Source: Acidobacterium sp. (lineage in GTDB: Bacteria > Acidobacteriota > Terriglobia > Terriglobales > Acidobacteriaceae). Taken from it: a stretch of DNA of 40,439 nt. Below the pieces are notes generated by a model that ran no database searches, was not told where the DNA came from, and was given only the letters and a program-made list of their open reading frames with translations. This document shows, piece by piece, positions 22,665-31,716 of the stretch. A program made the translations under genes and the position numbers. Numbering within the stretch: the first letter of the stretch is position 1; every line of letters starts with the position of its first letter. The DNA is taken from assembly GCA_003166955.1 (NCBI GenBank), contig PMUI01000090.1, positions 456 through 40,894 on the forward strand. The letters are read 5' to 3'.

Positions 22665-23543
22665 ATGCGCTGCGGATCGATGCTGGCCGTTCTTTGTTGT
22701 GGAGTTTTGCCGGCGGGCGGGGTGGGTGTGTCCGGTGCGGCGCAGCGAGCATTGGATTCCGCGTTGGCGGGGACCGGTGCAGTTGCGGTTGTACTGGATG
22801 GGCAGGATGGGCGGCCGATTGCGACGATCCGCGCGGAAGAAGCCGGTCGGCTGGCGAGTGCGCCGGGTTCGACACTGAAGCCGTTGTTTCTGGCGGCGGC
22901 GCTGCGGCAGGGAAGAGTCCGCGCCGAGACAACGGTGGTCTGCCACGGGAATCTTCGCATCGCGGGGCGCGATCTGGCCTGCACCCATCCTCGAGATGAA
23001 AATGTGCTGGATGCTGAACGGGCACTGGCTTACTCCTGCAATGCGTGGTTTGCGAATCTGGCGACGCGGTTTGCTCCGGAGCAGGCGGCGGACGTGCTGC
23101 GGGAGTACGGGTTGGGGAGCCGTCCCGGGTTTGTTGCCGAGGAATCGGCGGGTATGGTTCGGAGGCCGTCGAGCGAAGCAGAGCTGCAGCTATTTGTGCT
23201 GGGCCTCGAGGATGTGGAGGTGACGCCGGCACAACTGGCGCGAGCGTATTTTCGGCTGGCGGCGCAGTTGGATGAAGTGCCAGTGGTGCGGCGGGGGCTG
23301 GAGGGATCGATTGCTTACGGGATGGCGCACAATGCGGCGACACCCGGGCTGACGATTGCCGGCAAAACGGGCACTGCCAGCGATGCAGGTCAGGCGTGGA
23401 CCCATGGATGGTTCGCGGGGATCGCATCGCGCGGCGCAGAGCGGGTTGTGGTGGTCGTCTATGTGCCGCGCGGCAATGGCGCGGATGCGGCGGGGATGGC
23501 GCATCGGTTTTTCGCTGCGTTGGAGCGGATGGCGGCGGGATGA
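22665..23543 (+). CDS. Transpeptidase-only penicillin-binding-like protein
   Basis: A 292-residue secreted or membrane-tethered protein consisting of a single penicillin-binding transpeptidase domain. The three active-site motifs are all present: S69-T-L-K72 (APGSTLKPLFLAA), S124-C-N126 (AYSCNAWFANLA) and K234-T-G236 (TIAGKTGTAS). The N-terminus (residues 1-24) is a signal peptide or anchor. There is no glycosyltransferase domain and no class B dimerisation domain, so it is much shorter than FtsI, PBP2 or PBP1-type proteins; class D beta-lactamase-like or carboxypeptidase-like activity is possible. The start is the ATG at 22665, preceded by GTGGAAGG; a TTG 39 bases upstream is less likely. 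It overlaps the next gene by 4 bases (ATGA), so the two are translationally coupled, and it faces an alpha-2-macroglobulin operon. Confidence 0.85.
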   Translation: MRCGSMLAVLCCGVLPAGGVGVSGAAQRALDSALAGTGAVAVVLDGQDGRPIATIRAEEAGRLASAPGSTLKPLFLAAALRQGRVRAETTVVCHGNLRIAGRDLACTHPRDENVLDAERALAYSCNAWFANLATRFAPEQAADVLREYGLGSRPGFVAEESAGMVRRPSSEAELQLFVLGLEDVEVTPAQLARAYFRLAAQLDEVPVVRRGLEGSIAYGMAHNAATPGLTIAGKTGTASDAGQAWTHGWFAGIASRGAERVVVVVYVPRGNGADAAGMAHRFFAALERMAAG

Positions 23544-25333
23544 GGCGAGTTTGGATTCTGCTGTGGGCCGCTGCGTGGGGCGGGGTTTGCGGAGTTGCGC
23601 AGGAGCAGGATCCGGGCGCGCGGCAGCTGGCGGTTGAGGTGTTTTCTGCGCGTCGGATTGCGGCGTTGACTGTGATGCCGATCGGGAAGAAGGAGTCGGT
23701 CCGAGTTTGTGTTTCGTGTCGGGCGAGGGTGGTGAGCGCGCCTTTCACGGCGAAGGTGCTGGGCGATGAGGTTGCGTTGTCTTCGGGCCAGCGGGCGCGG
23801 GAGGTCGAGCTGGACGGTGCGTTTCGACTAAAGCCGGATGGCGATGCGAAGGAGATTGGCGCGGCGGGCGTGTGGAGACTGTCGGTTGCTCACGGCGAGA
23901 TGCGCGTGGTGTTGACACTCGACAGCGAGCGCTATGTTGCGCTGGCGCTGAACGGAGAGGCGGGGGCGAGTGAGCCGCTGGAATCGTTGAAGGCGATGGC
24001 GTTGGTGGTGCGGACTTTTGCGCTGGAAAATGCAGATCGGCATGCGAAGGAAGGGTTCAATTTGTGCGACAGCACGCACTGCCAGGCGCTTCGATTTGGA
24101 AAACTGTTGCCGGCGATGGAGCGGGCGGTTCTGGAGACGGCCGGAGAGACTCTGTGGTTCGGTGCGCGACGGGCTTTCGTGTTCTATGCGCAAAACTGCG
24201 GTGGGCAGAGCGAGGGTGCGAGCCAGATATGGAGACGGCCTCGCGAACCTTATCTCGTGTCTCATGCTGATCCGTGGTGCACGCGGCATGGGGCTGCGCA
24301 GTGGCACGCGGAGATTCCGGTGGAGCAGATGCGGTCGATTTTTCGGAGTGAGGGATGGAATTTGCCGGGGCGAATCGATGCGGTGCGTGTGGCGAAGCGT
24401 ACGGATGTGGGACGCGCCGTGCAACTGGAGTTTGCGGGAGGCGGCGTTGCGATTCCGGTGGCGGCGGAGAGCTTTCGACTTGCGGTGGATCGGGCGCTGG
24501 GGTGGAACCAGCTGCGCAGCGACTGGTACACGGTGAGCCTGAGCAATGGCGTTCTGCATTTTGACGGGCGGGGTTTCGGGCATGGAGTGGGGCTGTGCCA
24601 GGCGGGCGCTGCGGAGATGGCAGCCGAGGGGTATTCATCGGCGGAGATTCTGAGGTTTTATTTTCCGGGGACACGAGTGGGCGTGACGTCGCAGGATCGC
24701 GGATGGGTGTCGGTGCGCGGGACGGGATGGACGCTGTGGACGACTCTGACGGCAACCGATTTGGTGAGGGAAGGAAACGCGGCGTGGGGGAAGGCACAGG
24801 CACTTTATCCGCCCCGTAGGCCGGTGCAACCGGATGTGTGGCAGATGCCGACGACGGAGCTTTTTCGGCAGGTAACGAATGAGCCGGGATGGATGCTGGC
24901 TTCGGCGCAGGGGACGCGGGTCTTTCTGCAGCCATCGACGGTGCTGAAGAGAAGCGGCGGGGAAGAGGAGACGCTGTTGCATGAATTTCTGCATGTGCAG
25001 GTGGAGAGCGAGGCTTCCCCCCAGGCTCCGCTGTGGCTACGTGAGGGAGTGGTGGAGGCGCTGGCTTCTGGAGAGCACGGAACTGTGGAGGCGATGGCTG
25101 TAGCGGATTTGGATGTAGCGCTGACTAGACCGAGGAATCAGGCGGAATCGCAGCGGGCTCATGCGCGAGCCGGAATACTGGCGCAGGCGCTGATCGCGCG
25201 CTATGGGTTGGAGCAGGTACGGCTGTGGCTGCGATCCGGGAGTGTACCGGAGTCGGCGCTCAAGGTGCTGGCGCCGGCTCGATGGCAGGCTCCGGGGCCG
25301 GCTCCGGCAGGGAATCCATCCATGCAGCGGTGA
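23540..25333 (+). CDS. SpoIID/LytB-domain protein fused to an HExxH metalloprotease-like domain
   Basis: A 597-residue secreted protein. The signal peptide is residues 1-20 (RRVWILLWAAAWGGVCGVAQ). The SpoIID/LytB domain spans about 100-400: LESLKAMALVVRTFAL places the expected catalytic Glu at E148, CDSTHCQAL follows, and the signature GRGFGHGVGLCQAGA runs from 343 to 357. SpoIID proteins are lytic transglycosylases that cut denuded glycan strands. The C-terminal region has H481-E-F-L-H485 followed by WLREGVVEAL, with E502 exactly 17 residues after H485; this is the gluzincin/peptidase MA-like zinc site. The start ATG overlaps the TGA of the transpeptidase gene. The last 74 bases overlap, antisense, the end of the minus-strand six-TM protein. 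It could belong to the DUF2300/YfaQ-like proteins of alpha-2-macroglobulin loci; I could not verify that. Confidence 0.82.
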   Translation: MRRVWILLWAAAWGGVCGVAQEQDPGARQLAVEVFSARRIAALTVMPIGKKESVRVCVSCRARVVSAPFTAKVLGDEVALSSGQRAREVELDGAFRLKPDGDAKEIGAAGVWRLSVAHGEMRVVLTLDSERYVALALNGEAGASEPLESLKAMALVVRTFALENADRHAKEGFNLCDSTHCQALRFGKLLPAMERAVLETAGETLWFGARRAFVFYAQNCGGQSEGASQIWRRPREPYLVSHADPWCTRHGAAQWHAEIPVEQMRSIFRSEGWNLPGRIDAVRVAKRTDVGRAVQLEFAGGGVAIPVAAESFRLAVDRALGWNQLRSDWYTVSLSNGVLHFDGRGFGHGVGLCQAGAAEMAAEGYSSAEILRFYFPGTRVGVTSQDRGWVSVRGTGWTLWTTLTATDLVREGNAAWGKAQALYPPRRPVQPDVWQMPTTELFRQVTNEPGWMLASAQGTRVFLQPSTVLKRSGGEEETLLHEFLHVQVESEASPQAPLWLREGVVEALASGEHGTVEAMAVADLDVALTRPRNQAESQRAHARAGILAQALIARYGLEQVRLWLRSGSVPESALKVLAPARWQAPGPAPAGNPSMQR

Positions 25334-30736: not shown

Positions 30737-31716
30737 CGATAGACCCCTAGAAAATTCTGGTTGCCGGGTAGGGGGCGCCAGCGCGCGTCAGGATGGTGGA
30801 GCAGGTCCTCGATCGCGACGCGTCGGACTTCGCCCTTCTGTTTGCCGATGGGACCGGTGTGATAAATCACCCAGTCCGCATGCGGTCCTGTGACAACCAT
30901 CGAATGATACTGCGAGTTCTGCTCCAGCTGGCGAAAAAACAATAAATCGCCGGGAAGAGCTGTGTGGACGTTGCGGGAAACGGGGTAAGCGTTAAAGGCA
31001 AGGAGGGCGTGGGCGTCGGCGAACTGGGCAAATGCGCCGCTGTCGGCCGGTGTGTACGCGCCGGGCGTGACGCGGAAAAGATTCAGGCCGAGGCGCGTTT
31101 CCGGGTAGTGATACTGGGCGACCGAGACGAGGGAGGCGAATCGGTCGGCTTCGGGCTGTGCGGTAAGCCAGTGATCGTCGTGCTCGACGAGGGCTTCTCG
31201 ATACGCGAAGCGAAGCAGAGCCGCGCAGTCATCGATTTCCGGGGGCAGCTTCTCGCCCGGCAAGTCGGCTTCCTGTTCGGCGAGAGCCACGAACCAGGAT
31301 CGGAAGGCCTGGCGGTCTTCGGGGGAGTGGAGGTGGAGGGCGTCGGGCAGGCCGTCGTTGTGAGAGTCGGCGTCGATGGGAAGGTAGCGGGCGTTTAGCG
31401 TGTAGCGGCGACCGCGCCAGGCAAAGTGCAGAGCGGCAACGCCGGGCAGAACGGGCGAGCGGACAAGGACGGCGACTGTGCTGCTCGTCTTCTGTTGGAA
31501 GCGAAGCTCGGGAGAGGCGGATTCAATAGAAGATGAATCAAGGGAACGGCCGCTGCGGCGCGCGATGTCCGCGATCGTATAGGTTCGGCCATCGGCGGGG
31601 ACCGAGACCATGGTTCGCGGGACGATGAGCTGGTCGCGAGCGCAACCGGTGGGCGCGAGCAGCGAGCTTGCCAGGAAAACGAAGCGCAGGAATCTGGGTT
31701 TCGCATGCTGTTCCAT
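30709..31716 (-). CDS. DUF1175-family lipoprotein (YfaT-like)
   Basis: A 335-residue protein. Its N-terminus ([20 protein letters not shown]) is a signal sequence ending in a probable lipoprotein Cys near residue 25, although the lipobox P-T-G-C is imperfect at the -3 position. The C-terminal two thirds match the DUF1175 pattern: [66 protein letters not shown] and [20 protein letters not shown]. The conserved D-C and later His residues resemble a papain-like/NlpC-P60 arrangement (Cys in [15 protein letters not shown], His in YHSMVV); this is my inference. DUF1175 genes accompany alpha-2-macroglobulin genes in other Proteobacteria (E. coli yfaT beside yfaS). The start ATG at 31714-31716 lies only 9 bases after a perfect TATAAT, so the mRNA may be almost leaderless. 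First gene of a three-gene operon. Confidence 0.82.
   Translation of the reverse strand: [335 protein letters not shown]

Follow-up and report, generated by a model that had tools for sequence, protein, structure and literature searches.

A five-gene locus of Acidobacterium sp. (GenBank assembly GCA_003166955.1, contig PMUI01000090.1), which joins an alpha-2-macroglobulin (A2M) to predicted cell-wall enzymes, appears to correspond to the yfaTSQ/magCDE core of Escherichia coli and Pseudomonas aeruginosa, in a form that is catalytically fuller and has split genes. The locus lies in an analyzed stretch of 40,439 nucleotides (the window) and consists of two convergent operons: a plus-strand operon for a penicillin-binding protein (PBP) and a SpoIID protein extended by an HExxH domain, and a minus-strand operon for a DUF1175 protein, the A2M and a protein with six transmembrane (six-TM) segments (Table 1). 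Homology, co-occurrence, gene fusion and fission, and the conservation of active-site motifs are established at the level of sequence. On balance, we favor the view that the locus is a single periplasmic wall-guard, in which a thioester-bearing A2M would act with dedicated wall-acting partners of presumed biochemistry.

Co-inheritance and Conserved Motifs of the Five Genes

The genes were compared in 120 genomes of the order Terriglobales, to which the window belongs; genome counts are raw and ignore the kinship of the genomes. Full-length A2M orthologues are present in 26 genomes, and the same 26 carry orthologues of the SpoIID-HExxH protein (at least 155 bits; next score, 58) and of the PBP (at least 109 bits; next score, 48), as well as DUF1175, which occurs in no other genome of the sample. 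Seven more of the 120 genomes have A2Ms of other families only; these, along with matches to plain SpoIID or PBP proteins, were excluded by score. None of the 120 genomes carries one half of the set alone. Because the presence profile of the four genes is identical across the 120 genomes, their arrangement exceeds what chance would give. Carriers and non-carriers coexist inside each of seven genera (g1, g2, g4, g9, g11, g30, g37), where the four genes vary together, and another species of the window's own genus (G112) has none of the four.

The A2M and SpoIID genes are convergent neighbors in 23 of the 26 carriers; in the other three (G031, G094, G119), the PBP–SpoIID pair is located on a different contig from the A2M gene, yet both halves are kept. 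An open reading frame (ORF) with five or six hydrophobic segments follows the A2M gene in 24 of 25 relatives (the exception is L062). For the fetched loci of the order, the cut-offs for ORF matching were chosen by eye from the score gap. Pairwise distances among the A2M, DUF1175, PBP and SpoIID-HExxH proteins are correlated (r 0.85–0.94; 325 non-independent pairs, species signal included). In two genomes of the sister family (L060, L061), the PBP and the SpoIID-HExxH protein are encoded by a single ORF of 827 and 857 amino acids (aa), respectively. The original prediction that the five genes form one system is supported by these distributions: the genes are commonly neighbors in related genomes, and the plus operon is separate in only three carriers.

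The active-site motifs are retained in the window and in its 25 relatives of the order. The CTEQ thioester motif of A2M, each of the PBP motifs SxxK, SxN and KTG, and a SpoIID glutamate that we take to be the catalytic residue are present in 26 of 26. The HExxH motif is kept in 25 of 26 (HDLLH in L060) and the downstream EG in all 26. The Cys and His of DUF1175 are likewise found in 26 of 26, and every sequence has His or Asp at the third position except L064 (3886–4712, in G119), where DUF1175 extends over two overlapping frames, possibly because of a frameshift or an assembly error. The PBP appears to be motif-intact, with a complete predicted active-site set.

According to Pfam, the PBP consists of a transpeptidase domain without a glycosyltransferase, and the A2M of the window combines a bait-region domain (A2M_BRD) with the intact thioester motif; this A2M has an apparent signal peptide, and no lipobox was seen in it. 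The AlphaFold2 model of P0002 (mean pLDDT 77) matches the SpoIID structures 5i1t and 4rwr (E 4e-15 and 2e-14). Its Foldseek match to M1 metallopeptidases is weak (E ~3e-4 to 7e-4, TM-score ~0.2, large rmsd) and probably concerns the C-terminal part, for which no Pfam family was found above cut-off; with its HExxH and downstream Glu, this part is a candidate gluzincin-type metallopeptidase. The six-TM protein, which has no match in Pfam, is likely to be a membrane anchor. NCBIfam gave no match for the A2M, DUF1175 or six-TM proteins, and PADLOC returned nothing relevant on the locus, with one weak REase_II match to the PBP.

The PBP and SpoIID-HExxH genes share an ATGA overlap, the DUF1175 and A2M genes overlap by 28 bp, and the A2M and six-TM genes by 4 bp. 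These overlaps, the two convergent operons and the gene coordinates had been described in the original prediction and are confirmed, with Pfam supporting four of the five products; its intact CTEQ, six TM segments, transpeptidase-only PBP and SpoIID-HExxH protein are borne out by motifs, Pfam and hydrophobic segments. Its DUF1175 lipoprotein stands as a DUF1175 protein (E 1e-65), whereas the lipoprotein reading is doubtful: the ..APTGC of the window departs from a canonical lipobox, and a lipobox pattern is present in just 2 of 25 relatives. The plus and minus operons also overlap tail to tail by 74 bp (25260–25333), and ORF overlaps of ~55 bp between the convergent operons are seen at the corresponding site in L041, L044 and L045.

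Table 1. Genes of the macroglobulin locus and of its flank, in window coordinates
Gene product	Position	Strand	Length	Features
Transpeptidase-only PBP (P0001)	22665..23543	+	292 aa	STLK (SxxK), SCN (SxN), KTG; Pfam PF00905, E 3e-27
SpoIID-HExxH protein (P0002)	23540..25333	+	597 aa	SpoIID-type lytic transglycosylase domain (Pfam PF08486, E 4e-14; TIGR02669); C-terminal HExxH..EG metallopeptidase-like domain
Six-TM protein (P0003), predicted inner-membrane	25260..26033	-	257 aa	Six hydrophobic segments; no Pfam family
A2M	26030..30736	-	1568 aa	GTG start; Pfam MG2, A2M_BRD, A2M, TED, bMG10; CTEQ
DUF1175 protein (P0005)	30709..31716	-	335 aa	Pfam PF06672, E 1e-65; NlpC/P60-like; keeps Cys and His, with His at the third position
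Sigma factor with DUF6596 and HypF-like gene	31803-35359			4-bp tail-to-tail overlap

Other macroglobulin families of the order (10 loci, L174–L183; e.g., L175 5229–11249, plus strand) encode proteins of 1790–2068 aa with CGEQ, CFEQ or CAEQ thioesters, and no DUF1175, SpoIID or pbpC ORF was found in the fetched stretches of these loci. In G116, the end of one such macroglobulin gene lies within ~0.3 kb of the five-gene block, on the upstream side of its DUF1175 gene and on the same strand.

Kinship with the Yfa and Mag Operons

Of the 297 Acidobacteriota genomes sampled, 38 contain DUF1175; 32 of these 38 belong to families other than the window's, and 20 of those 32 loci were examined in fetched stretches. 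DUF1175 adjoins a CxEQ macroglobulin in all 20, and a SpoIID protein is present inside the stretch in 16. Among these 16, eight have a single PBP–SpoIID–HExxH ORF (770–1056 aa), L080 and L082 are cut by the edge, and the six loci of family f24 (L083–L088) have a SpoIID partner without a PBP in the fetched stretch, the HExxH part matching before SpoIID in five of the six. Whole-genome search completed the fused proteins of G380 and G351 (open frames of 945 and 916 aa), bringing the fused form to 10 of 20 loci. In G169, the contig also carries a SpoIID-type gene at a distance of ~27 kb; the G313 locus stops at a contig edge. No YfaA or YfaP match above 15 bits was found in the 20 loci. Fusion state, gene order and strand therefore appear to vary across Acidobacteriota while the gene set mostly persists.

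In E. coli K-12, the corresponding set comprises yfaA (DUF2138), yfaT (DUF1175), yfaS (A2M, a pseudogene), yfaQ (DUF2300) and yfaP (DUF2135), and yfaT overlaps yfaS. Pseudomonas loci have the order YfaP-like, YfaA-like, DUF1175, A2M, YfaQ, YfaP-like, and because of this order MagC is presumably the DUF1175 protein and MagE the YfaQ relative. YfaQ matches the Pfam SpoIID family above cut-off (27 bits versus 23). In hhalign comparisons with a YfaQ profile of 30 rows, for which 40 column shuffles and the reversed alignment served as decoys, the SpoIID-HExxH profile matches the C-terminal half of YfaQ (Prob 97.6, score 104; shuffles at most 25.6, reversed 15) and the PBP profile matches the N-terminal half (score 45–52; shuffles at most 24, reversed 19) with a Prob of 70–87 that depends on the handling of insert columns; a lone YfaQ sequence does not suffice to match the PBP (Prob 4.5). 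The AlphaFold2 model of a Methylobacter YfaQ (pLDDT 91) resembles class A beta-lactamases (E 2e-7, TM-score 0.51 of the target), a match that probably covers the N-terminal half.

Because of these profile and fold matches to the two halves of YfaQ, the plus operon is best read as a split, motif-intact counterpart of yfaQ/magE. In all 30 YfaQ rows, SxxK keeps its Ser and its Lys, and the SpoIID Glu and HExLH are also conserved, whereas SxN no longer has its Asn and KTG no longer has its Gly; gaps in the alignment cover much of the later SpoIID part, with GHGxGLCQ among the gapped positions. Thus, yfaQ/magE looks like a decayed form of the wall-enzyme set. YfaQ has already been reported as a transpeptidase/SpoIID protein (PMC12282094, 2025).

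In the locus, as in the Type II operons yfaATSQP (E. coli) and magABCDEF (P. aeruginosa), the DUF1175 gene immediately precedes the A2M gene and overlaps it, and the partner combines transpeptidase-like, SpoIID and HExxH parts. In contrast to those operons, the window has an intact thioester, intact transpeptidase motifs and full SpoIID motifs, encodes the PBP and the SpoIID-HExxH protein in separate genes, and contains a six-TM protein and no DUF2138 (YfaA, MagB) or DUF2135 (YfaP) gene; neither family has a Pfam match in the five products or in five other genes of the window. With the SpoIID proteins of Clostridioides difficile and Bacillus anthracis (5i1t, 4rwr), P0002 shares the SpoIID-domain fold and motifs, whereas it has an extra HExxH domain and no sporulation gene is seen beside it.

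Thioesters and Macroglobulin Types

A DUF1175-pattern scan, from which the best 80 of 459 relatives were kept, is biased to the query's neighborhood and does not give unbiased rates. A macroglobulin ORF of more than 1200 aa is present in 65 of the 80 loci, DUF1175 is directly upstream of it in 52 of these 65, and a SpoIID or HExxH partner is found in 49 of the 53 loci with at least 3 kb of downstream sequence. The thioester motif is present in 22 of 22 Acidobacteriota loci (some genomes being shared with the 20 fetched loci), 6 of 6 from other phyla (three Spirochaetota, one Myxococcota, one Thermotogae, one Zymogenaceae), both Deinococcota plasmids and 29 of the remaining 37 proteobacterial loci (two of them 'Deltaproteobacteria' metagenome-assembled genomes), and in neither E. 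coli K-12 (a broken gene, counted by its longest open piece) nor Citrobacter. All losses seen fall in Enterobacterales or in Pseudomonas (4 of 10). Gapped motif cells, which mostly result from domain cutting, were not scored as present; these are the PBP KTG in four Acidobacteriota rows (L071, L100, L111, L113), SxxK and SxN in L119, and the DUF1175 Cys in three Acidobacteriota and four Pseudomonadota rows. The DUF1175 Cys count in the scan loci is no evidence in itself, the search pattern having contained that Cys.

Several other loci differ in arrangement. L091 has DUF1175 without an A2M nearby. In L122 and L124 (Spirochaetota), the partner is present as three ORFs, a PBP-like protein (weak, 33–36 bits), SpoIID (375 aa) and HExxH, together with a YfaP-like gene. 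In L129, L134, L137 and L140 (Methylomonas and relatives), the DUF1175 ORFs also match YfaP in an apparent fusion, a CTEQ macroglobulin is located further downstream, and no partner is seen in the short flank.

Type II macroglobulins have been defined by the absence of CXEQ (PMC5764988), and the original prediction had described the second type as lacking the thioester. This matches the published definition but not the scan, in which most proteobacterial A2Ms have a thioester. Since the thioester is usual in the DUF1175-linked kind and losses are confined to Enterobacterales and some Pseudomonas, the lack of a thioester looks like a derived state on this sampling. The window is not Type II by the published definition, as its thioester is present and both DUF2138 and DUF2135 are absent; it is more readily understood as a variant of a wider DUF1175-linked macroglobulin kind.

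In a midpoint-rooted tree of 61 hand-picked A2M cores, the four Type I proteins linked to pbpC cluster together (support 100) to the exclusion of the window, and the thioester-less proteins are nested in the proteobacterial mag clade. A Type I parent of the window's A2M is unsupported by this tree, in which the deep branches are unsettled. The locus resembles yfhM-pbpC (Type I) in having a CxEQ thioester A2M near a penicillin-binding protein; it differs in A2M clade, in the lack of a glycosyltransferase domain in its PBP and in the presence of DUF1175, SpoIID-HExxH and six-TM genes. The proposal that the locus mixes both types is not supported, the A2M lying outside the Type I clade and thioesters being common in the DUF1175-linked kind. 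Nor is the proposal that pbpC has been replaced, given that the PBP and SpoIID together correspond to a split yfaQ/magE, a usual partner of DUF1175-linked macroglobulins.

Proposed Function of the Locus and Alternatives

As a wall-guard, the locus would operate as follows. The six-TM protein would hold the A2M at the inner membrane. The complex would be positioned on peptidoglycan by domains for the peptide stem (DUF1175), the glycan (SpoIID) and the cross-link (transpeptidase), which might also trim or re-close damaged wall. Once an intruding enzyme entered the periplasm, the most plausible candidates being wall hydrolases or proteases from a rival, the bait would be cut; the thioester would then be exposed, and the intruder would be bound covalently where the wall enzymes act. 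The putative HExxH peptidase domain could be the bait cutter or the disposer of the trapped protein, which is the least certain step. The HExxH part is likely to matter to the macroglobulin itself, because it is kept alone beside the A2M in two Deinococcota loci and its motif is kept in YfaQ.

Published work on the relatives bears on this model. MagD shields P. aeruginosa from the wall-targeting type VI secretion system (T6SS) effectors VgrG3 and, to a limited degree, Tae1, by a mechanism that was left open (PMC12663445). MagB keeps MagD at the membrane, and deletion of magE leaves less MagD and produces forms of higher mass (PMC5764988). For deletion of magC, the text of the same article (no pronounced effect) conflicts with a figure legend (100-kDa form absent).

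Several observations weigh against the wall-guard. No stable MagC–MagD or MagE–MagD complex was found, which speaks against a tight association of these proteins, and MagE was read as a cytoplasmic helper (PMC5764988). MagD gave no protection against TseH or B. thailandensis (PMC12663445). DUF1175 has been placed in an NlpC/P60-like group and termed inactive (PMC10318531); in the sequences compared here there is no sign of inactivity. SpoIID-HExxH-type matches with an E value of 1e-60 or better occur in 51 of the 297 Acidobacteriota genomes, and ten genomes of families f25 and f47 (G145, G200, G225, G270, G292, G299, G311, G325, G374, G382) have a near-full-length SpoIID-HExxH protein without DUF1175; therefore, outside the window's order, the family is wider than the macroglobulin system. 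The two Deinococcota plasmid loci (L089 14140–14745, L090 14038–14856), in which a small HExxH protein accompanies DUF1175 and a CxEQ macroglobulin, lack the SpoIID core, and four scan loci (L121, L123, L125, L154) have no SpoIID or HExxH partner despite at least 3 kb of downstream sequence. The A2M tree leaves the joining of the window's group and the mag clade unsettled, the tool warning of long branches that meet (mag clade with Type I). In the literature searched, no experimental study of the acidobacterial system was found.

A bolder, and doubtful, version makes the system a self-triggering, complement-like wall alarm, in which the wall-bound transpeptidase/SpoIID/NlpC-like module would sense damaged peptidoglycan or engage it, its own HExxH domain would cut the bait, and the thioester would tag or capture enzymes at the wound.

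The set might instead be a housekeeping wall-remodeling complex with the A2M as a scaffold and no immune function. Deletion of E. coli yfaQ widens cells and connects to peptidoglycan- and membrane-remodeling mutants such as mepS, mepK, bamE and ompC (PMC12282094), which is consistent with such a role, as is the conservation of several wall-enzyme motifs. We regard it as unlikely in view of the patchy presence of the set even inside single genera (26 of 120 genomes, with G112 lacking it), the retention of the thioester and, in the window, of the bait-region domain, and the protection that MagD gives from some effectors that cut the wall (PMC12663445).

A broad trap for proteases, linked to wall repair in the way proposed for Type I with PBP1c and with the small PBP in the role of pbpC, would account for the intact thioester and bait domain, for the transpeptidase and, by analogy, for the pbpC gene that adjoins the Type I A2M gene in all four loci examined. 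The window's A2M is outside the Type I clade, the NCBIfam scores of its PBP are higher for the PBP2 (mrdA) model (87 bits) than for PbpC (32 bits) and far below cut-off for both, and the PBP–SpoIID pair matches yfaQ/magE, so no replacement needs to be assumed; in this Type I form the idea is improbable. Protease trapping with wall repair, as the original prediction had it, is possible in itself, and the published P. aeruginosa data point more to defense against wall-cutting effectors (PMC12663445).

The block is flanked by a GH3 glycosidase on one side and by a sigma factor (Sigma70_r2 and DUF6596), followed by HypF, on the other; of the four flanking genes compared in 28 stretches of the order, each covering a few kb beyond the block, HypF alone recurs near it, in L054 only. 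Although this and the patchy, closely linked distribution would fit two adjacent operons that travel together by linkage alone, for example in a horizontally moved cassette, such an explanation is very hard to credit, as both halves are retained on different contigs in three carriers and the gene set persists in most Acidobacteriota loci while order, strand and fusion state differ.

The significance of the wall-guard reading lies in the company that the macroglobulin keeps: the same kind of macroglobulin as MagD comes, at this locus, with a motif-intact set of wall-acting enzymes. The locus thereby joins the macroglobulin literature to the separate 2025 report on YfaQ (PMC12282094), in whose available text the word macroglobulin is absent; in a limited search that left most subscription journals outside, no report of a macroglobulin operon linked to these wall enzymes was found. 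The sorting of bacterial macroglobulins by the thioester is, we argue, misleading. A direct prediction is that the macroglobulin is either the target or a working partner of the HExxH domain. If the self-triggering version were true, DUF1175-linked (Mag-type) macroglobulins would be wall-damage immune systems, ancestrally with a thioester and active wall enzymes, and the textbook forms of E. coli and P. aeruginosa would derive from them by reduction, with the peptidase motif retained. In Acidobacterium, the locus combines an immune-type trap with wall enzymes and resembles a more complete version of a system that aids another bacterium in surviving attacks on its wall.

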